Shown: positions 766 through 24,404 of the stretch, in pieces
How positions within the stretch are numbered: position 1 is the stretch's first letter
How the letters are laid out: every line of letters starts with the position of its first letter
From: Lewinellaceae bacterium
GTDB lineage: Bacteria > Bacteroidota > Bacteroidia > Chitinophagales > Saprospiraceae
Length of the DNA: 41,528 nt
Direction of reading: 5' to 3'
NCBI GenBank assembly: GCA_024639065.1
Contig: JAHEJC010000011.1
Span: 1 to 41,528, forward strand
Notes under the pieces: generated by a model
What the model was told of the DNA's origin: nothing
What the model saw: only the letters and a program-made list of their open reading frames with translations
The model's database searches: none
Program-made: the position numbers and the translations under genes

Positions 766-2175
766 TTATTTTAACATGAGCTTTTCGGCATAAACAGTTT
801 TACCTTGACGTGTAATTTGAAGCACATAGATGCCCAAGGGAAGTTCAACCAAATCTAGATAGGTTATATTGTTATTTAACGAGTCGGACATCAGCGACTG
901 ACCGATATAGTTTAGAATATCGATTCGAAAATTTTGGTTGAACTGGTTTGAAGGGTAATCAATCTCCAGGCGTTTACTATCACTTTTCCATTGAATGGAA
1001 AAATCATTTTTATTGAAATTTTTAGTATTTGTAGAAATGGAGTATGTATGTTCCATCCATTCAATACCCCCAGGAAGGAGCAGGTTGTGATCAAAGTCAA
1101 AAAAGGTGGCATGTTCCTGGTGACTGCCTTGATCCCATTGATTCCAGCAAGGTGTTGAAACCCAGCTAGGTTCCCAATAGATTACCCCTCGACCACCTTG
1201 ATCGATCACTTCTTGCGTGAGATCGATCAACCACTTTTTTTGATTCAGAGGCGAAGCGGGTTCATAGTCCGGATGAGTTTCTGAAATAATATTATTGGCA
1301 TTGTCAAAATTATCTGTAGTCCAGATGTAACCGGTCTCAACAATAATAACTTCTTTATCAGGATAAGCTGTTCTTAATCTTCGGATTACTTGTCCGGTTT
1401 CAGGAATGGTGGTTGGCTTATGCCAGGCCCAATAATAAGACATACCGATCAAATCAAAATCTGAAACTCCATTTTGTATGAATTCATTGATCCACCATTC
1501 GGATTTTGAAGGGTCAGCCACATGCAGCATAACTTGGATGGGAATTGCCGATTCTTGCGATACTGTTCTTACCGCTTGGATGGCGCGATTAAACAAGTGA
1601 GCATTTCGTGACCATTCTAAGGTCCAGGTCTGATTATCTTCAGGTGAAAGTAAAATACCCCGATTGGTCTCATTGCCTATTTGGACCATTTCAGGAAGTA
1701 AATCATTTTGGTATAGATGAGTGAGTGTTTTGTAAATGTATTGATAAAGCGAATCACCCAGCAAATCAACCTCCTCGACTACTGATAACCAGGCAGACGG
1801 TACTAACTGTTTGGATGGATCCGCCCAATTGTCGGAGAGGTGGAAATCGAGTAAGACTTGCATACCTGCATTCTTGGAACGACGAATGCTCTTCATGACA
1901 TCTTCAAGATCACTGTACCGATTTCCTTCGTTCAATTGATCATACCAAGAAGGTGTGTGCCACAATCTCAATCGAGTGAGATTACAACCATGATCTTGGT
2001 AAATTGAATAAACATCTTTCTCAATCCCATTTTCTTTATATTGAGCACTACAATCCTCCATTTCATTGACATAGGATTGATCGGCGCCAAAAAAGAAATC
2101 TTGTCCATTGACACCAGTATAACTAATAACAAAGAGGATGCAAAGCGTATATTGAATAATCGATCGACTCTGCAT
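766..2175 (-). CDS. GH53 arabinogalactan endo-beta-1,4-galactanase, T9SS-exported
   Basis: The 469-residue protein has a signal peptide (about 1-24) followed by the typical GH53 opening FFFGADQSYVNEME and NLTRLRLWHTPSW. The TIM barrel covers about 26-390. The acid/base Glu is E169 in VQIGNETNRG and the nucleophile is E280 in VIIVETGY, both in the normal GH53 contexts. GH53 enzymes cut internal beta-1,4-galactosyl bonds of pectic galactan and type I arabinogalactan. The last ~75 residues form a T9SS type A sorting domain (LPLGIYVLQI...YAEKLMLK), so the enzyme is predicted to cross the outer membrane through T9SS and be cell-attached or released. It is the third gene of a susC-susD-gh53 run, 9 bp after susD, which makes galactan the likely target of the locus. 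Confidence 0.93.
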   Translation of the reverse strand: MQSRSIIQYTLCILFVISYTGVNGQDFFFGADQSYVNEMEDCSAQYKENGIEKDVYSIYQDHGCNLTRLRLWHTPSWYDQLNEGNRYSDLEDVMKSIRRSKNAGMQVLLDFHLSDNWADPSKQLVPSAWLSVVEEVDLLGDSLYQYIYKTLTHLYQNDLLPEMVQIGNETNRGILLSPEDNQTWTLEWSRNAHLFNRAIQAVRTVSQESAIPIQVMLHVADPSKSEWWINEFIQNGVSDFDLIGMSYYWAWHKPTTIPETGQVIRRLRTAYPDKEVIIVETGYIWTTDNFDNANNIISETHPDYEPASPLNQKKWLIDLTQEVIDQGGRGVIYWEPSWVSTPCWNQWDQGSHQEHATFFDFDHNLLLPGGIEWMEHTYSISTNTKNFNKNDFSIQWKSDSKRLEIDYPSNQFNQNFRIDILNYIGQSLMSDSLNNNITYLDLVELPLGIYVLQITRQGKTVYAEKLMLK

Positions 2176-2184
2176 GGTATTGAT

Positions 2185-4380
2185 TTAATAACCTGAATTC
2201 TGTTTTAGGTTAGGATTAGCACCTAGATCTGGGGAAGGAATAGGATATACATCTCGGAAACTTTCTACAGATCTTCCTTCCATAACACCGCCCTTCCAGG
2301 CCCATAGATAATCGGTTTGACTAAATTTATCAAAACGTACTAAGTCCGTCCTGCGGTGACATTCCCAATATAACTCTCTTGCCCGTTCTTCGATTAAAAG
2401 GTTTAAATTAAGATCTTCTGGTTTGATATTACCTCCGGATCCTTTATACGCCCGTTGTCTTACCACGTTAAAATAATCAGCAGCCTGAGTCATATCACCA
2501 CCACTTCGGACAATGGCTTCAGCCGCCATTAAATAAAAGTCTGCTAATCTAAACATGGGAAAATCAGTATCCGGGAAATCAGTATCAGATCCTTGTGTTC
2601 CATCTGAAGTCACATTTTTAAATTTTTGAATGGCATATCCTTCGGTAAATATGGTTACATCAGTAATATCTAAAGTTTGACCAGCACTATAGAAAATGCC
2701 CCGGTTGTCAAAACTGGTGCTATTGATCGCAAACGTATAATCTGGTTGATTCAGGTATAAAAGGATTTCAACAGAACCTCCTTCCGCCAGGATAATATCA
2801 TCTCCACCGATGTCCAAGATTCCATCAGCACCATTATCACCCAGGTTGATATCCCAGGAGTCATTGGCTCTAAACTTGATAGGCCCGGGTTGAACATCCA
2901 AGTTGGCAACTAAAGCGTTTTTCTCTGAGTCCCATTCCATATCAATATCCGTTTCCCAGCCATTTGCAGTGGCATCACCCAAAACACCCCACGAAGCAGG
3001 TGTCAAAGTGTACGTACTATTGGACAAGTTTACCTCAATCTTATATAATCCTGCTGAAGGAACACGGATAGTATCGCCATTCATTTCTAGTGTCCCGTCT
3101 CCTCCGTTGTCACCGAACCGGAGAGCAAAAGAAGGAATCTGGGTAATTAAGAAGCCCAGCTGATTTTCAGGAAAATATCGATATCCTTCAAAGATCCGGT
3201 TACTGGTCGGTGAAGAGATGGTATTGGTCTCCACACTAACATCCCAGCCTTGATAGGCTCCAGGTACATATAGTTTGGGGTATTTTCGGGTATTTCCTTC
3301 AACGCGTTCAAGTATTACTCCACCGAGTTCACCAAATAATTCCACTATTTGCTTAGTGGTGCGAACACCCCCCCAACCGCTCACTACTCCAGATTCGGAT
3401 GGATCCATGCTGCCTCCGATACCTGCTCTGATGATAAAAGTCATTCCACCCCAAGTACGTGTGTTTACCCCATCGAAAGTTACTGGGAATATCATTTCGT
3501 TTGAATTATGGTTATCAGCAAGAAATAGATTTTGATATTCCGGTTCCATACTATAACCGGCGTTAATAATTTTTTCACAGTATTCAAGACACTCTCCGAA
3601 TTTGCTGCTACCTGTATAGGCTTCAGCGTTGAGGTATAATTTTGCCAGTAGCGCCCATACTGCACCCTGATCCGCCCGACCATATTCATTCGATCTGGCG
3701 GATTGAATGGTACCTTCAATTTCCTTCAGTTCAGCTTCTAAATAATTGAATAAATCAGGTGCTTGAATTTGTTCTGGGAAAAACGATCCTACCACATCAT
3801 TTTCAGTTACAAATGGAACATTTCTGAACAGGTCCAAGGCATGCCAATAACTTAATGCCCTCAGAAATCTGGCTTCAGCACGAAAACCCGCGATATCATT
3901 GGCTAAGTTTTGGTCTACTCCCCGGGCATCCAATTTATCCTGAGTCGTTTCACGGATAAATTCATTACATAAAGCAATTTGATAAAAAATACGGCTGTAA
4001 AAAGCAAATATGAAACCATCTTCAGCACTCCAGTCTTGTTCATGGAAATCTTTAATCGTTTGATCATTCCATCCCACCAGTGCCTCATCGGTGGAGAGTT
4101 CCTGATGATACCAAAAGCCTCTCAAGTATTGACCAAATCCTTCGTCAATACCTTCAATATCTGATTGCCCAGCAGGTCCCTGTTGGCCACTCACTGCAAG
4201 TCCGGCATATAGCTTTGCGAGCACGGCACGATAAGCACTCGGATCGTCATACACAACCCCTGAAGTAACTACATCTTCATCCAGTGGAATGGTGTCAAGA
4301 TCCTTGACACATGAATATTGAAATGTAAGAAAGAGTGCGAAGCAAATAAATTGAATACTGAATTTAATATATTTTTTCAT
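2185..4380 (-). CDS. SusD/RagB glycan-binding lipoprotein with two embedded SusE/SusF-like modules
   Basis: This 731-residue protein is well above the usual 500-600 for SusD. The N-terminal half is normal SusD: a lipoprotein signal with Cys at residue 24, a helical body (AGFRAEARFLRALSYWHALDLFRNVPF at about 164-190) and RADQGAVWALLAKLYLNAEAY. The C-terminal part is also normal (FRLADFYLMAAEAIVRSGG at about 610-628, LIEERARELYWECHRRTDLVRF, YPIPSPDLGANPNLKQNSGY). Between them, about residues 366-553, lie two modules of SusE/SusF type: one starting YVPGAYQGWD with GDNGGDGTL, and one starting WGVLGDATANGWETD with IKFRANDSWDINLGDNGADG. They match the repeats of the secreted protein at 7649-9481. 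The gene lies 10 bp after susC. SusD proteins cap the SusC pore and hand over oligosaccharides; the embedded modules probably add binding surface. Confidence 0.9.
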   Translation of the reverse strand: MKKYIKFSIQFICFALFLTFQYSCVKDLDTIPLDEDVVTSGVVYDDPSAYRAVLAKLYAGLAVSGQQGPAGQSDIEGIDEGFGQYLRGFWYHQELSTDEALVGWNDQTIKDFHEQDWSAEDGFIFAFYSRIFYQIALCNEFIRETTQDKLDARGVDQNLANDIAGFRAEARFLRALSYWHALDLFRNVPFVTENDVVGSFFPEQIQAPDLFNYLEAELKEIEGTIQSARSNEYGRADQGAVWALLAKLYLNAEAYTGSSKFGECLEYCEKIINAGYSMEPEYQNLFLADNHNSNEMIFPVTFDGVNTRTWGGMTFIIRAGIGGSMDPSESGVVSGWGGVRTTKQIVELFGELGGVILERVEGNTRKYPKLYVPGAYQGWDVSVETNTISSPTSNRIFEGYRYFPENQLGFLITQIPSFALRFGDNGGDGTLEMNGDTIRVPSAGLYKIEVNLSNSTYTLTPASWGVLGDATANGWETDIDMEWDSEKNALVANLDVQPGPIKFRANDSWDINLGDNGADGILDIGGDDIILAEGGSVEILLYLNQPDYTFAINSTSFDNRGIFYSAGQTLDITDVTIFTEGYAIQKFKNVTSDGTQGSDTDFPDTDFPMFRLADFYLMAAEAIVRSGGDMTQAADYFNVVRQRAYKGSGGNIKPEDLNLNLLIEERARELYWECHRRTDLVRFDKFSQTDYLWAWKGGVMEGRSVESFRDVYPIPSPDLGANPNLKQNSGY

Positions 4381-4390
4381 GGCTTATTTC

Positions 4391-7339
4391 TTAGAATTCT
4401 ACATTTAAACCAAATAGTATAGTTCTTGGTCTTGGATAAATATTATTATCGATGCCTCCAAATATTTCCGGATCTAACCCATCATATTTTGTAATTAAAA
4501 ATGGATTTTGCACAGTAGCATAAATGCGGGTAAATTTACCAATCAGGTTATCAAAATTGTATCCTGCTGTGATATGATCAAATCTTAAGAAATCCGCTTT
4601 TTTTACATAATGATCGCTGAAAGTAAGGTTTCCTTGTTCAACCACATTATTATCAACAGCTGCCTGGTTGATGTTCCATAAAACACCGGTCGTTCCATAA
4701 ATTCGATTCAACCAACCCATATCTGTCTGCACATTGTTGTATACATAATTACCTACATTGGCTCTACCGGCGAAGGTTATATCAAAGTTCGAAATTTCTA
4801 CTCGGCCAGACAATCCAAATACCAAGTCCGCTGCAGGTTTTTCAAAACGATATTTATCTTCACCATTTACCATACCATCTGCATTCCGATCTACAAATTC
4901 GCCTTCAATGATGTTGCCTGCTTCATCATAAACTTGTTCAAATACATAAAATGATCTGGGTGCAAATCCAACACTGTGGATTTGAATATTACTACCTACA
5001 CCTCCCGCAATTCCACCGGTCAAAATACCTTCGTAGGTAGGATCATCTATCGCCGTAAGTTTGGTGATTTCATTTTTATTATAAGCTACATTAGCTCCAA
5101 GTTCAACCGCCACCTTAGCAGTCTTAACGGGTGTTCCAAAAAGAGCAAGCTCGACGCCTTGATTTTCCATGTTACCAATATTGGTTGTAATGAAATTGGT
5201 CAGATTAGTACCAGCCGGAACAGGAATCCGGTTGAGTAGATCTTTGGTGTCTCGCTGATAAAAGTCTAATGACCCGTTCAGTCTATCTTGGATAATTGAA
5301 AAATCCAAGCCTACATTTATAGTGGCGGTTTCTTCCCAGCGAATATTTCCATCGTATCCATTGGGACGTAAGGTCGTAACAAACTCATCTCCAAATTGGT
5401 AACGGGCATTTTCGAAACCCAACTGATATCTTGCCAGGTAGGCATAAAAATCTCCGATATCTTGTTGGCCGGTGATTCCCCAGCCAGCCCGTAATTTTAA
5501 TTTGTTTAAATAGTCTTTTTCGTTATCAATCAATTTAATGGCTAAAGCAGCAGCTGGGAACAGTCCCCAGCGGTTATCTGGCGAGAACCTGGAAGTACCA
5601 TCGCGTCTAAGTGTCAAAGTCAATAAATATCGTTCACTAAACGTATAATTGATTCGCCCATAGGTAGATAGGAGATAGTATTCCGCGGGGTCCGAGCCGA
5701 CAGTCGTTTCCGAAGGTGTACCTGCAGCATCGGAATTTCTGAAAGTATTGTCTACTTCAAAATGTTGCCAGGAATAACCAGCCATCAAATCCAAATCATG
5801 GTCTCCAAAAGTCTTTTTATAGTTGAGATAAAACTCAAGTAAGGTATTTTTTTTGGTCTGACTATATTCGTTGTTGACTCCCCCTCCATTAATCAGATCA
5901 AAAGCGAAAGAAGCTGTGGTTGGAACTACCACTGTTCCCTCTCCTTTGGAATAATCATAAGCAAGATTTAGATTTAATCGGAGTGCAGGGATGAAGCTCA
6001 AGCGATAATCAGCGGATGCATTAGCAATGTACCGATTCACTGTGCTATTGTCCTCCCGTAGATCAATCAGTGCCAAAGGATTGGTGGGAGCCAGCGCATT
6101 GGGATTTCCATTGGGAATGGTCCAGGTCCAATAACCTCCATAAGGATTACCCGGATCTAAAACAGGATGGGTAGGATCAAAACTCAGTGAATTACCTATT
6201 GCTCCTCGATCTGCAAAATGATTTTTAGTACGCATAGCTTTTAGACCTAGATTGACTTGAAGGGTGTTGTCAATAAATCCTGGATTTACATTGATACCAG
6301 CGGTAAGCCGATTAAAATTATCGGTCATCAGAATTCCACTTTTGTCAGAGAATCCCAAAGAGGCTCTAAATGGAATTTCTTTAAGTGCGCCTGCAACATA
6401 CAGGTTATGATCATGACCAATGGCAGTTTCATATATTTCATCCTGCCAATCGGTATTGGCATCGCCTACTACCTCTCGTGCAGGGTGATCTTCAGCATAT
6501 TGTTGATTTAGGGCTTCTCTGAATTCTGCAGCTGATAGGACATCCACTCGATTATATGGCGTGCCAAAAGATATATTTCCATTGTAACCCACACTTACTC
6601 GATCACCTACGCTACCTTTTTTTGTGGTGATCAAGATTACTCCGCCAGCCGCTCGATTGCCATAAATCGCTGATGCCGATGCATCTTTGAGTACGGTGAA
6701 AGACTCGATATCATTCGGATTAATGATGTTCAAGGGATTTCTGCTTCCGGAGATACCTCCATTATCGATGGGAACACCATCAATAACGATCAGTGGATCA
6801 TTGGATGCACCCAGCGACGATTCTCCCCGAATCCTGATAGCAGATCCGGCACCAGGACTTCCATCCGTAGTTATGGATACCCCGGGTACTTTGCCTGCCA
6901 ATAATTCCTGAGCGCCCGTAATGGCTCCTTTATTAAAATCTTCGCTGGTTACTGACTGAATGGAACCAGTGGCATCTTCCCTTTCAATTGTACCATATCC
7001 AACCACAATCACTTCCTCTAATATTTGACCAGCCCTTAAAACGAGGTTATATTCATTACTTTCGGTAAGCTGAACTTCCTGGGTATTATAACCAGTATAA
7101 CTTATAACGATGGTAGCTGCTTCTGCTGGGATATCCAAGGAAAAGGTTCCATCTATATCCGTGGCAGTCCCCGCATCAGACCCTTTAATGAGCACATAAG
7201 CACCAATTAAAGGTTCGTTGGTTTCAGCGTCGGAAATAACACCAGAAATCGTTCTTTGTGAAAACGTGATGACTATGGAAAGGAAAAGAAACAAAAGGGT
7301 CAGTGTTTTCTTTCTGCTTATAATTTTAAAATATCTCAT
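4391..7339 (-). CDS. SusC/RagA-family TonB-dependent outer-membrane transporter
   Basis: The 982-residue protein has a signal peptide (cleavage near residue 27), a carboxypeptidase-regulatory-like beta-sandwich (about 29-103, ISGVISDAETNEPLIGAYVLIKG), the SusC signature and TonB-box segment EEVIVVGYGTIER (108-120), and a plug domain (about 121-240, with GVPIDNGG and VLKDASASAIYGNRAAGG). A 22-strand-type barrel follows to the C-terminal NNIYPRPRTILFGLNVEF. It imports oligosaccharides across the outer membrane using TonB energy. It heads the minus-strand operon with susD and GH53, so the predicted cargo is galacto-oligosaccharide from beta-1,4-galactan. The coding region looks intact. The start is taken at the ATG that gives a complete signal peptide. 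Confidence 0.95.
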   Translation of the reverse strand: MRYFKIISRKKTLTLLFLFLSIVITFSQRTISGVISDAETNEPLIGAYVLIKGSDAGTATDIDGTFSLDIPAEAATIVISYTGYNTQEVQLTESNEYNLVLRAGQILEEVIVVGYGTIEREDATGSIQSVTSEDFNKGAITGAQELLAGKVPGVSITTDGSPGAGSAIRIRGESSLGASNDPLIVIDGVPIDNGGISGSRNPLNIINPNDIESFTVLKDASASAIYGNRAAGGVILITTKKGSVGDRVSVGYNGNISFGTPYNRVDVLSAAEFREALNQQYAEDHPAREVVGDANTDWQDEIYETAIGHDHNLYVAGALKEIPFRASLGFSDKSGILMTDNFNRLTAGINVNPGFIDNTLQVNLGLKAMRTKNHFADRGAIGNSLSFDPTHPVLDPGNPYGGYWTWTIPNGNPNALAPTNPLALIDLREDNSTVNRYIANASADYRLSFIPALRLNLNLAYDYSKGEGTVVVPTTASFAFDLINGGGVNNEYSQTKKNTLLEFYLNYKKTFGDHDLDLMAGYSWQHFEVDNTFRNSDAAGTPSETTVGSDPAEYYLLSTYGRINYTFSERYLLTLTLRRDGTSRFSPDNRWGLFPAAALAIKLIDNEKDYLNKLKLRAGWGITGQQDIGDFYAYLARYQLGFENARYQFGDEFVTTLRPNGYDGNIRWEETATINVGLDFSIIQDRLNGSLDFYQRDTKDLLNRIPVPAGTNLTNFITTNIGNMENQGVELALFGTPVKTAKVAVELGANVAYNKNEITKLTAIDDPTYEGILTGGIAGGVGSNIQIHSVGFAPRSFYVFEQVYDEAGNIIEGEFVDRNADGMVNGEDKYRFEKPAADLVFGLSGRVEISNFDITFAGRANVGNYVYNNVQTDMGWLNRIYGTTGVLWNINQAAVDNNVVEQGNLTFSDHYVKKADFLRFDHITAGYNFDNLIGKFTRIYATVQNPFLITKYDGLDPEIFGGIDNNIYPRPRTILFGLNVEF

Positions 7340-7648: not shown

Positions 7649-9481
7649 ATGAATTCAAGGATTTTTTCTTACTTATTTTTCAGCTTATTTACAGTTACCG
7701 TGTTCGGACAAATTGAATCGGTAGGTTTAATTGGTTCAGCTACACCGTTTGGTTGGGATGCAGATACTAATATGATCAAAGTCGATACGATTCCACATAT
7801 GTGGACTATGACGATTACATTGACTGATGGTGCCGCAAAGTTCAGAGCTAATGGCAATTGGGACGTAAACTGGGGAGCTACTGATTTTCCTTCCGGAATA
7901 GGTACTCAGGGAGGTCCGGATATTCCTGTTTTTGCCGGAGATTACATTATAACGTTTAATGATTCTACTGGTGCATATAATTTTGCGGTCCAATCTCCTA
8001 TGGGTATTATTGGAGATGCCACCGCTAATGGTTGGGATGAAGATACCAATATGTGGGAAGACTCCAATGGTGTATTCTTCATAACTATTGATTTAACCAA
8101 CAATAAAGTGAAATTCAGATTGAATGATATGTGGAATGTACAGGATTCTGCTGGAAATGAAATTTCCACCAATTGGGGAGGTGAAATGTTTCCCATGGAC
8201 ACGGCTACGCTTAATGGTCCTGATATTGGAATACCTAAAGCAGGCACCTATTTTGTTACATTCGATACATCGTCTTTGATCTACAATTTTAAAGAAATCA
8301 TCGCATTTGATTCAGTAATGATTATAGGTGATGCTACTGCAGGTGGCTGGGAAATGGGTACGCTCATGACCCAAGATGCCAGTAATCCAGATATATGGAA
8401 ACTATCGACTTCCTTGATTGAAGGAGGTGCTCAGTTCACGGCAAACGGGGGATCGCTGATTTGGGGTGGTTCAGATTTTCCAGAAGGAACTGCAGTTGTG
8501 GATGGGGATACGATACCTGTGGCTGCCGGCGATTATCAAATCGAATTGAATACCGAATCCGGGGAGTACAAGTTTTTGAAAATCGAGATTTATGAATCGA
8601 TTGGTATAATTGGATCGGCTACAGTTAATGGATGGGAAGGAGATGACATTGACCTAGAACGAGATGCTGCGGATTCTTCTAGCTGGAGTTTGCGTATTGA
8701 ATTATTGGATGGAGAAGCAAAATTCAGAGCTAATAATGATTGGGAAGTAGCAAACTGGGGAGGAGGCGATTTTCCAACTGGGGTAGCTACTTTAAATGGA
8801 CCAAACATACCCATAACTGCCGGTGAATACCTGATAAGTTTTAATAGTATTACTGGGGCATATAATTTTGAATTAATTGTAGAATATGATGCCATTTCGC
8901 TGGTAGGTAGATCAGGACCTTTTGGTGACTGGCCCGGTGATGATTCTTCAAGAGACCTATTTATGAGTGTTAGTCCCGATGATCCACAATCCTGGTCCGC
9001 CGAAGAAGTTACCTTGACCACATGGAGTGACTTCAGTGACGGAGGTGTTAAATTTAGAGCTGATACCTCCTGGACTATTAATTGGGGAGCCGCTGATTTT
9101 CCAGCTGGAACAGGAACACAAGATGGTGCTAACATTGAATGCATTGGCGGAACCTATAGTGTTTCTTTTAATTCTGCAACCGGTGAATATCTTTTTGGTG
9201 CACCTAGTTCCACTCATGAAATTCTTAGACCGTCTGCTATCAAATTATTTCCTAATCCGGCATATACCAGAATCAACCTGGATATATCTGAGTTAGGAGA
9301 CCTCAGTGGAGATGTGCAACTCAATGTTATGGATATGAATGGGAAACTAGTTAAGAGAGAAAAACGAACGGCTCAGTCCATTATGAGTATAAATGTTTCT
9401 CAACTGGAAACAGGTAATTATCTAATACAAGTCATAGGAGATGGGTATCTATTTGGAAAGAAATTTAGTATTGTAAGATAA
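7649..9481 (+). CDS. T9SS-exported protein with five tandem SusE/SusF-like modules
   Basis: This 610-residue protein has a signal peptide (about 1-20, no lipobox) followed by five repeats at about residues 22-113, 117-215, 221-311, 317-409 and 414-517. Each opens with a version of IIGDATANGWDEDT, has a central VKFRANDDW..NWG..DFP strand pair, then GP(D/N)IP, and closes with AG(D/E)Y.ISFN..TGAYNF. This is the SusE/SusF starch-binding-protein pattern, also found twice inside the neighbouring SusD. A T9SS type A sorting domain (about 528-610, LFPNPAYTRINLDI...LETGNYLIQV) ends the protein. SusE and SusF are normally outer-membrane lipoproteins, so export by T9SS is a different route to the surface. 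It diverges from susC across a shared control region and is probably co-regulated as a multivalent glycan binder. The ligand is not known; galactan is an inference from GH53. Confidence 0.88.
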   Translation: MNSRIFSYLFFSLFTVTVFGQIESVGLIGSATPFGWDADTNMIKVDTIPHMWTMTITLTDGAAKFRANGNWDVNWGATDFPSGIGTQGGPDIPVFAGDYIITFNDSTGAYNFAVQSPMGIIGDATANGWDEDTNMWEDSNGVFFITIDLTNNKVKFRLNDMWNVQDSAGNEISTNWGGEMFPMDTATLNGPDIGIPKAGTYFVTFDTSSLIYNFKEIIAFDSVMIIGDATAGGWEMGTLMTQDASNPDIWKLSTSLIEGGAQFTANGGSLIWGGSDFPEGTAVVDGDTIPVAAGDYQIELNTESGEYKFLKIEIYESIGIIGSATVNGWEGDDIDLERDAADSSSWSLRIELLDGEAKFRANNDWEVANWGGGDFPTGVATLNGPNIPITAGEYLISFNSITGAYNFELIVEYDAISLVGRSGPFGDWPGDDSSRDLFMSVSPDDPQSWSAEEVTLTTWSDFSDGGVKFRADTSWTINWGAADFPAGTGTQDGANIECIGGTYSVSFNSATGEYLFGAPSSTHEILRPSAIKLFPNPAYTRINLDISELGDLSGDVQLNVMDMNGKLVKREKRTAQSIMSINVSQLETGNYLIQVIGDGYLFGKKFSIVR

Positions 9482-23008: not shown

Positions 23009-23066
23009 CTATCTTCGAAACGTTAAACGGTTGATTTGTAAGGAACATTTATTAATATTAACGTGG

Positions 23067-23624
23067 ATGAAAAGAATATATGTTCCAAAAGCAGCATATT
23101 TAATTACGACAAACCCAAAATGGAGGATAAATTATTTCGATGAAGATGTTCTTGCTGCAATCTTCATTGAAACAACCAGAACTTCCATAAAATTGAAGCA
23201 GGGTTTTTTAATTGCATATAAAGTCAATCCAGAACATGTGCACCTGATTATTCAAGTAGGAATAGAATTTAATATTTCTCAGGTCATGCATTCAATAAAA
23301 CGAGTAAGTTCCGACAGAATAAATCAAATTCTTACATTTAATCGAGATCCTCATCTCTATACAAATTTTGAGTGGAGTAAAGATCTTCTTCTTTTTAAAA
23401 AGAGATTTTTATCCAAATACGGAGAGGAAAATCAACATGAATATCCGCACTTTCAATGGAATAGAAGTTTCCATGACCTATTAATCAGAACCAAACATGA
23501 TTTAATTGCCAGAATTAAATATTTGGAGAACCAACATATTAAACACGAGTTAACAGAAAACAAATGGTTATATGTTTGCAACCAATTACCGCATGATCTC
23601 AATTTTATTGGTGGGAAACGATAG
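23067..23624 (+). CDS. REP-associated tyrosine transposase (RAYT, Y1/IS200-like HUH enzyme)
   Basis: This 185-residue protein has the Y1 transposase fold. The HUH metal motif is HVHLII (H57, H59) after NPE, and a helical motif comes later: WNRSFHDLLIRTKHDL (131-146) and IKYLENQHIKHEL (150-162), in which Y152 is the likely nucleophilic tyrosine. RAYTs cut and join single-stranded DNA at REP hairpins and are usually present as one domesticated copy near such repeats. Here hairpins of two types lie immediately on both sides. The frame is open further upstream to a TTG at 23031, but that would run into the repeat region, so I prefer the ATG at 23067. No frameshift or stop is seen, and the key residues are present, so it may be active. 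It is not an insertion sequence with recognisable ends. Confidence 0.85.
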   Translation: MKRIYVPKAAYLITTNPKWRINYFDEDVLAAIFIETTRTSIKLKQGFLIAYKVNPEHVHLIIQVGIEFNISQVMHSIKRVSSDRINQILTFNRDPHLYTNFEWSKDLLLFKKRFLSKYGEENQHEYPHFQWNRSFHDLLIRTKHDLIARIKYLENQHIKHELTENKWLYVCNQLPHDLNFIGGKR

Positions 23625-23981: not shown

Positions 23982-24404
23982 TCAATAACAAGGGTTCTGA
24001 ACCAAATTTGGATTAGCGAGAAGCTGATCTTCAGGATTGGCCATAATAAATTACAAGCCGGATCACTGGCTTCTTTTTCCCACCGCCGCATCGGAATATA
24101 CCCCAAACCGAATCAAATCATTGCGGCGATGTCCTTCCATATATAATTCACGCCCCCTTTCTGCTAGCAGTTCTTCCATAGATAATTCAGTCAGATTATC
24201 CAGGCCTGCCCGGGTCTTTATCTGATTGACTAATGTCAAGGCACTTTCTTCATCTCCTGTATGTAACAGTACTTCAGCTTTCATCAGTAAAACATCGGCG
24301 GATCTAACTATTGGAAAATCCTCACTGATATAGCAGTCGCTGCCATCGTGAATAAAATAGGATAACATAGCCTGAAATGAAGCAGCGATTAGAAATTCAA
24401 TCAA
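23982..24404 (-). pseudogene. Decayed susD C-terminal remnant
   Basis: On the minus strand, about 113 codons from 24404 encode an unmistakable SusD C-terminal part: SYFIHDGSDCYISEDFP, VRSADVLLMKAEVLLHTGDE, LLAERGRELYMEGHRRNDLIRFG. The frame is then broken twice. At a run of five T around 24073-24078 it must shift to continue as WEKEASDPA. Near 24035-24040 it must shift again to give PEDQLLANPNLVQNPCY and a stop at 23982-23984, which is the normal SusD ending. The N-terminal ~75% is missing and upstream frames are closed. No susC partner is present. It is the debris of a lost utilisation locus. Confidence 0.85.

Follow-up and report, generated by a model that had tools for sequence, protein, structure and literature searches.

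We describe a SusD-family lipoprotein in which two SusE/SusF-type beta-sandwich modules lie inside the SusD fold. It is encoded in a 41,528-nucleotide stretch of a Lewinellaceae bacterium genome (contig JAHEJC010000011.1, hereafter the window), and its inserted pair resembles the C-terminal half of the SusE proteins that many relatives encode directly after susD. Both protein families are known, and it is the domain architecture that is apparently new and undescribed: we found no description of SusE modules within a SusD in the accessible literature, a scope outside which most subscription papers fall. The explanation that we favor as probable is that a SusD lid gained the C-terminal module pair of SusE, that the modules hold glycan at the lid, and that free SusE was later lost in the clade to which the window belongs.

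Two SusE-type modules within a SusD core

The features of the window that bear on this finding are as follows.

766..2175, minus strand: GH53 family glycoside hydrolase with a T9SS tail (PF07745 E 1.1e-92; TIGR04183 23.4 bits, cut-off 23)
2185..4380, minus strand: SusD-family surface lipoprotein of 731 amino acids with an internal insert and lipobox Cys24 (NCBIfam SusD, PF07980, Foldseek)
2188..2712, minus strand: C-terminal part of the SusD core, residues 557-731 (profile and alignment)
2722..2997, minus strand: insert module B, residues 462-553, X25/SusE-type beta-sandwich with W475, W509, R504, N506 and N512 kept (SusE-derived profile E 7.1e-45, model, Foldseek)
2998..3285, minus strand: insert module A, residues 366-461, X25/SusE-type beta-sandwich with W379 kept and the second tryptophan lost (F418) (SusE-derived profile E 2.8e-39, model, Foldseek)
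3331..4380, minus strand: N-terminal part of the SusD core, residues 1-350 (alignment to solved SusDs)
4391..7339, minus strand: SusC TonB-dependent transporter, partner of the SusD (TIGR04056 E 3.2e-214)
7649..9481, plus strand: divergently transcribed gene for a secreted protein that has a T9SS sorting tail and five X25/SusE modules of the module B type (profile matches; TIGR04183 E 1.6e-11)

The susD gene is an intact, single open frame of 731 residues, placed between the SusC gene (10 bases upstream) and the GH53 gene (9 bases downstream). Its product matches the NCBIfam SusD model in two stretches (E 4.5e-124) and passes the cut-off of PF07980 SusD_RagB (E 1e-31; 111.2 bits against 23.1). 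With NF033071 it scores 414.7 bits and does not reach the exception cut-off of 725, so we call it SusD-like rather than the named protein itself. A Foldseek search with the whole AlphaFold2 model returned the TPR-type SusD fold, with a TMt of 0.90 for Bacteroides vulgatus 3jys and 0.84 for Bt SusD (3ck7). Cys24 follows a signal helix and is invariant in 90 sequences, which predicts lipidation.

Alignment to 3ck7 and 3jys covers residues 26-349 and 557-731 of the window SusD. The flanks of the junction are almost contiguous in 3jys (305 to 318), so about 200 residues are extra in the window protein. The first-pass annotation had placed two SusE/SusF-type modules at residues 366-553 (2722-3285), and these boundaries proved almost exact, with the whole extra segment extending over approximately residues 351-556. 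Its reading of their identity was borne out as well. Residues 366-553 alone reach PF16411 SusF_SusE at E 3.5e-4 (21.4 bits, under the curated cut-off of 27.5), and profiles built from the two C-terminal modules of neighboring SusE proteins match the insert at E 2.8e-39 (module A) and 7.1e-45 (module B). Shuffled inserts gave no match to these module profiles. Both profiles also match all 62 distinct double inserts at E <= 6e-19, while PF16411 matches 33 of 51 inserts of the window and its relatives at E <= 0.01 (best E 7.5e-19) and the X25 pullulanase domain matches 13 of the 51. Three relatives (L047, with 51.6 bits, L110 and L139) pass the curated cut-offs of both SusD_RagB and SusF_SusE in a single protein. 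A PDB search with the single insert sequence gave nothing useful, and profiles were needed.

In the AlphaFold2 model of the full SusD (mean pLDDT 93.2, pTM 0.86), the insert is all-beta and set within the SusD fold, not part of the ordinary helical bundle. Modeled alone (pLDDT 96.3), it has Foldseek PDB matches at E <= 0.001 only to Sca5 X25-2, SusE and SusF. The N-terminal domain of SusE (PF14292) was not found in the window SusD or its insert by Pfam search.

Putative ligand site and target glycan

Residues R87, D106, W310 and W336 of the window SusD align with R81, N101, Y296 and W320 of Bt SusD, whose ligand-site residues we take to be R81, W96, N101, Y296 and W320. R87, D106 and W336 are invariant in the 90 sequences and the W310 position is aromatic; the position of Bt W96 is valine in the window (valine or isoleucine across relatives). 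By profile the core is starch-type, and alpha-amylases occur among the neighboring genes of relatives L033, L035, L036, L048 and L052. The operon partner belongs to GH53, the endo-beta-1,4-galactanase family, which points to galactan as the target. Given the starch-type core and amylase neighbors on one side and the GH53 partner with the replacements of W96 by V and N101 by D on the other, the target glycan would be either alpha-glucan or galactan. A GH53 gene within a starch-type SusCD operon is not confined to the window (766-2175): GH53 likewise lies beside such a SusCD in L004, L031, L033, L086, L088, L143 and L144.

Origin and distribution of the double insert

Immediately downstream of susD, many relatives encode a SusE of about 350 amino acids with a PF14292 N-terminus followed by PF16411 (domains seen, for example, in L037). 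Over their last 186 residues, these downstream proteins share 35-47% identity with the insert of the window. When 62 inserts and 39 SusE halves are placed in one tree, a single branch separates the two sets, with a support of 79, which is not strong. Since SusE is the more widespread of the two and this branch has moderate support, the direction of transfer was probably from SusE to SusD, and the most parsimonious history would be a single event that copied the C-terminal half of SusE into susD. High within-genome identity in the susE-keeping clade, where the SusE C-terminal half of L037 is 63% identical to the insert of the same genome (the highest within-genome value), led us to consider gene conversion between the insert and the neighboring SusE. 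We ruled it unnecessary: inserts and SusE halves fall on opposite sides of one branch in the module tree, so no ongoing exchange needs to be assumed. On the tree of SusD cores, the double-insert form requires two changes, the second of which is the insert-free row L078 inside the group. A single clade of double-insert SusDs is compatible with the data (p-AU 0.28, from a test run on 48 rows of the 124-row set).

We count at least 62 distinct SusDs with the double insert, every one from the family of the window (Saprospiraceae where named). All 47 double-insert genomes listed, from a sample of 398 genomes of the order, belong to this family, and those with names are mostly Saprospiraceae/Lewinellaceae-type MAGs. 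Where computable, dN/dS is about 0.03-0.11 for the insert and 0.02-0.11 for the core, and the insert codons are under purifying selection. These results bear on whether the insert might be an artefact of assembly or of gene fusion, or else just an ordinary loop of SusD unrelated to SusE. Such a reading could appeal to the score of the window insert under the curated Pfam SusF_SusE cut-off and to the longer loop of Bt SusD at the same place, but the same architecture recurs in dozens of independent genomes, is constrained at the codon level, and has a confident all-beta model with matches to the SusE/SusF fold. We regard it as refuted by the AlphaFold2 model, the SusE-derived profile matches and the Foldseek search of the insert, and its probability as negligible.

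In a Gemmatimonadota MAG, a 1003-residue frame (L066:9992-13003) encodes a SusD-enzyme fusion, with an alpha-amylase (GH13) domain behind the SusD part. Within the window itself, positions 23988-24344 hold the remnant of another SusD C-terminus (39% identity, two stop codons), near which an ORF at 23031-23624 resembles a REP-type (Y1) transposase, as judged by eye.

The loop after the ligand-site tryptophan

The insertion junction lies about 14 residues after W336, which corresponds to Bt W320. Other starch-type SusDs also bear inserts at the same junction: eight sequences of family f44 have a single module A-type insert (E about 1e-17 to 2e-27) and three sequences of family f25 have a single module B-type insert (E 1e-12 to 1e-30). 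On the tree, the single-module forms require five changes, and strong branches back four or more of them. Domains unrelated to SusE occupy the site in two further cases: a 137-residue domain without Pfam assignment in SusDs of 666 amino acids (L071:2157-4157 and L072:2216-4216), and an 83-residue insert in SusDs of 613 amino acids that keep susE (L132:2814-4655 and L133:1786-3627). With two other lineages bearing a single SusE-type module and two bearing unrelated inserts, the loop is a recurrent insertion site, and its repeated use suggests a place where binding domains can join SusD without breaking it.

A broader reading is that, in starch-type SusDs, this loop would serve as a general insertion port at which different lineages repeatedly took up extra glycan-binding modules, be it module A or B alone, the two together or unrelated domains, and that in the clade of the window the captured pair became an internal SusE, letting free susE be lost. 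We consider this possible, while leaning against it as a whole.

Retention and loss of susE

The first-pass annotation had noted that the operon lacks a susE gene, and a separate SusE was found neither there nor in the rest of the genome (92.8% complete, 616 contigs). Where 900 or more bases downstream of a double-insert susD were available, susE is adjacent in 27 cases and lacking there in 32; one of the 27 genes, which shares 91 bases with susD, was added to the count manually. All 32 SusDs without susE beside them (0/32) fall in one insert clade of 35 rows with a support of 99, that of the window. In the other insert clade, susE is present in 27/27, fully or partly sequenced, and single-module SusDs have it beside susD in 11/11, one of them with slightly under 900 bases of flank.

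The window also encodes other SusE-type modules outside susD. The inserted modules had been likened earlier to the repeats of the adjacent secreted protein at 7649-9481(+), and indeed all five repeats match the profile of the second module (E 2e-8 to 5e-23), with the GW motif and the F-R-x-x-x-x-W motif each in four of the five. A T9SS-tailed multi-module protein occurs in 7/7 members of the susE-less clade with at least 7 kb of upstream flank and in three members with less. Because some members of the susE-keeping clade (L039, L041 and L057) have one too, this protein probably predates the loss of susE. Further multi-module or very long proteins were observed near susD in other records: a 527-amino-acid protein with SusE-type modules right after SusE in a Chlorobiota record (L070:12614-14197), and very long proteins with FG-GAP/ASPIC repeats and a GH13 domain right after insert-bearing susD genes (L035:12207-16403 and L036:10580-14035).

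In SusE and SusF the tandem modules are of the X25 type, and the X25 modules of SusE, SusF and Sca5 bind alpha-glucan; the Sca5 pair does so via tryptophans of both modules, with paired tryptophan and asparagine in the site (PMC9112005). At the SusE positions W171 and W210 (module A) and W267 and W301 (module B), tryptophan is present in 100, 100, 88 and 80% of the SusEs of the family and in 92, 74, 92 and 96% of inserts that are accompanied by susE. In inserts without susE the corresponding values are 14, about 0, 45 and 45%. The window insert keeps W379, W475 and W509 and has F418 at the W210 position, so that module B has both tryptophans of the two-Trp motif and module A one. The presumed binding sites of the insert therefore appear mostly decayed where SusE is gone, less so in the window than in most of its clade, and glycan binding by inserts of the susE-less clade may have been lost or altered.

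These observations decide the fate of the interpretation first placed on the fusion, namely an all-in-one capture lid whose insert does the glycan-binding job of SusE and makes SusE dispensable. What stands is the coincidence of insert and missing SusE, in the window genome and, beside susD, throughout its clade. The dispensability does not stand: with susE kept across the other insert clade and the single-module SusDs, the insert alone does not make SusE dispensable. A simple take-over of SusE glycan binding is likewise doubtful because most inserts of the susE-less clade have lost their paired tryptophans, and that clade also has a T9SS multi-module protein whose motifs are intact. We accordingly rate this interpretation as quite improbable.

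Since binding sites decay where SusE is gone, a different substitution is worth stating, and it is the main rival to a glycan-holding surface at the lid. The inserted modules may have taken over a binding-independent role of SusE in holding or assembling SusCD, and thus be kept as an internal scaffold while their glycan-binding residues decay after the loss of susE. SusE has been described as essential in establishing the SusCD complex (PMC11093988), and by its title Foley 2018 (cited in PMC10316084 and PMC10826348) reports a role of SusE in uptake that does not depend on starch binding. Consistent with a scaffold, susE was lost exactly in the clade where the tryptophan pairs of the insert decay, and the insert is nevertheless retained and constrained there (dN/dS about 0.11). 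Yet module B of the window insert keeps its full tryptophan pair, the SusE N-terminal domain, which could itself be the scaffold, is missing from the insert, and susE was lost only once in the sample, which makes the association one data point. On balance we find a scaffold role unlikely, if less so than the all-in-one lid.

Proposed role of the inserted modules

Under the favored explanation of glycan holding at the lid, the loop just after the ligand-site tryptophan W336 of a Saprospiraceae SusCD importer would have gained a copy of the two C-terminal X25-type modules of SusE. Judging from sequence, these modules would hang on the cell-surface side of the mobile lid and keep glycan chains close to both the SusD site and the mouth of SusC. 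If they do, closure of the lid would be physically linked to capture and presentation. Module B would be the main binder in the window, because only one of the two tryptophans is left in module A. Free SusE would have been lost later in this clade, where the T9SS-tailed five-module protein may supply much of the glycan tethering. The natural fusion fixes SusE-type modules to SusD one to one, and as versions with and without free SusE exist, it provides a ready-made test of the role of SusE and SusF.

Comparison with known systems

The window SusD has family and fold in common with Bt SusD (3ck7) and B. vulgatus 3jys, and the positions of R81, W98 and W320 are conserved. In contrast to the window protein, neither solved structure has the two modules; at the same place Bt SusD has about 45 extra residues and 3jys about 12. 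A variable loop near the ligand site is also known from the looped and open alpha-glucan SusDs of marine Flavobacteriia, where it is tied to PUL content including SusE; that loop is about 17 residues long without an inserted module (PMC11093988).

SusE and SusF (4fem, 4fe9; PF16411/PF14292) have the same tandem beta-sandwich fold as the insert and share the two-Trp motif with module B. Unlike the insert, they are free-standing lipoproteins that include an N-terminal domain of their own, whereas the window has only the C-terminal pair, placed inside SusD. By E-value, the best Foldseek match to the insert is the tandem X25 pair Sca5 X25-2/Sas20d2 of Ruminococcus bromii (7rpy), which belongs to a scaffoldin/amylosome context and forms a four-Trp clamshell, while the window insert has three tryptophans at the four SusE tryptophan positions. 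BT3088 SGBPdex of the dextran utilisome (9sje, 9sji) gives profile matches at E 1e-4 with the inserts and 1e-6 with the SusE halves, but it is a free surface glycan-binding protein located beside SusCD and not within SusD. For SusE/SusF-type binding proteins and the SusCD pedal-bin importer, a stable utilisome and a transient assembly are both under debate (PMC7618045).
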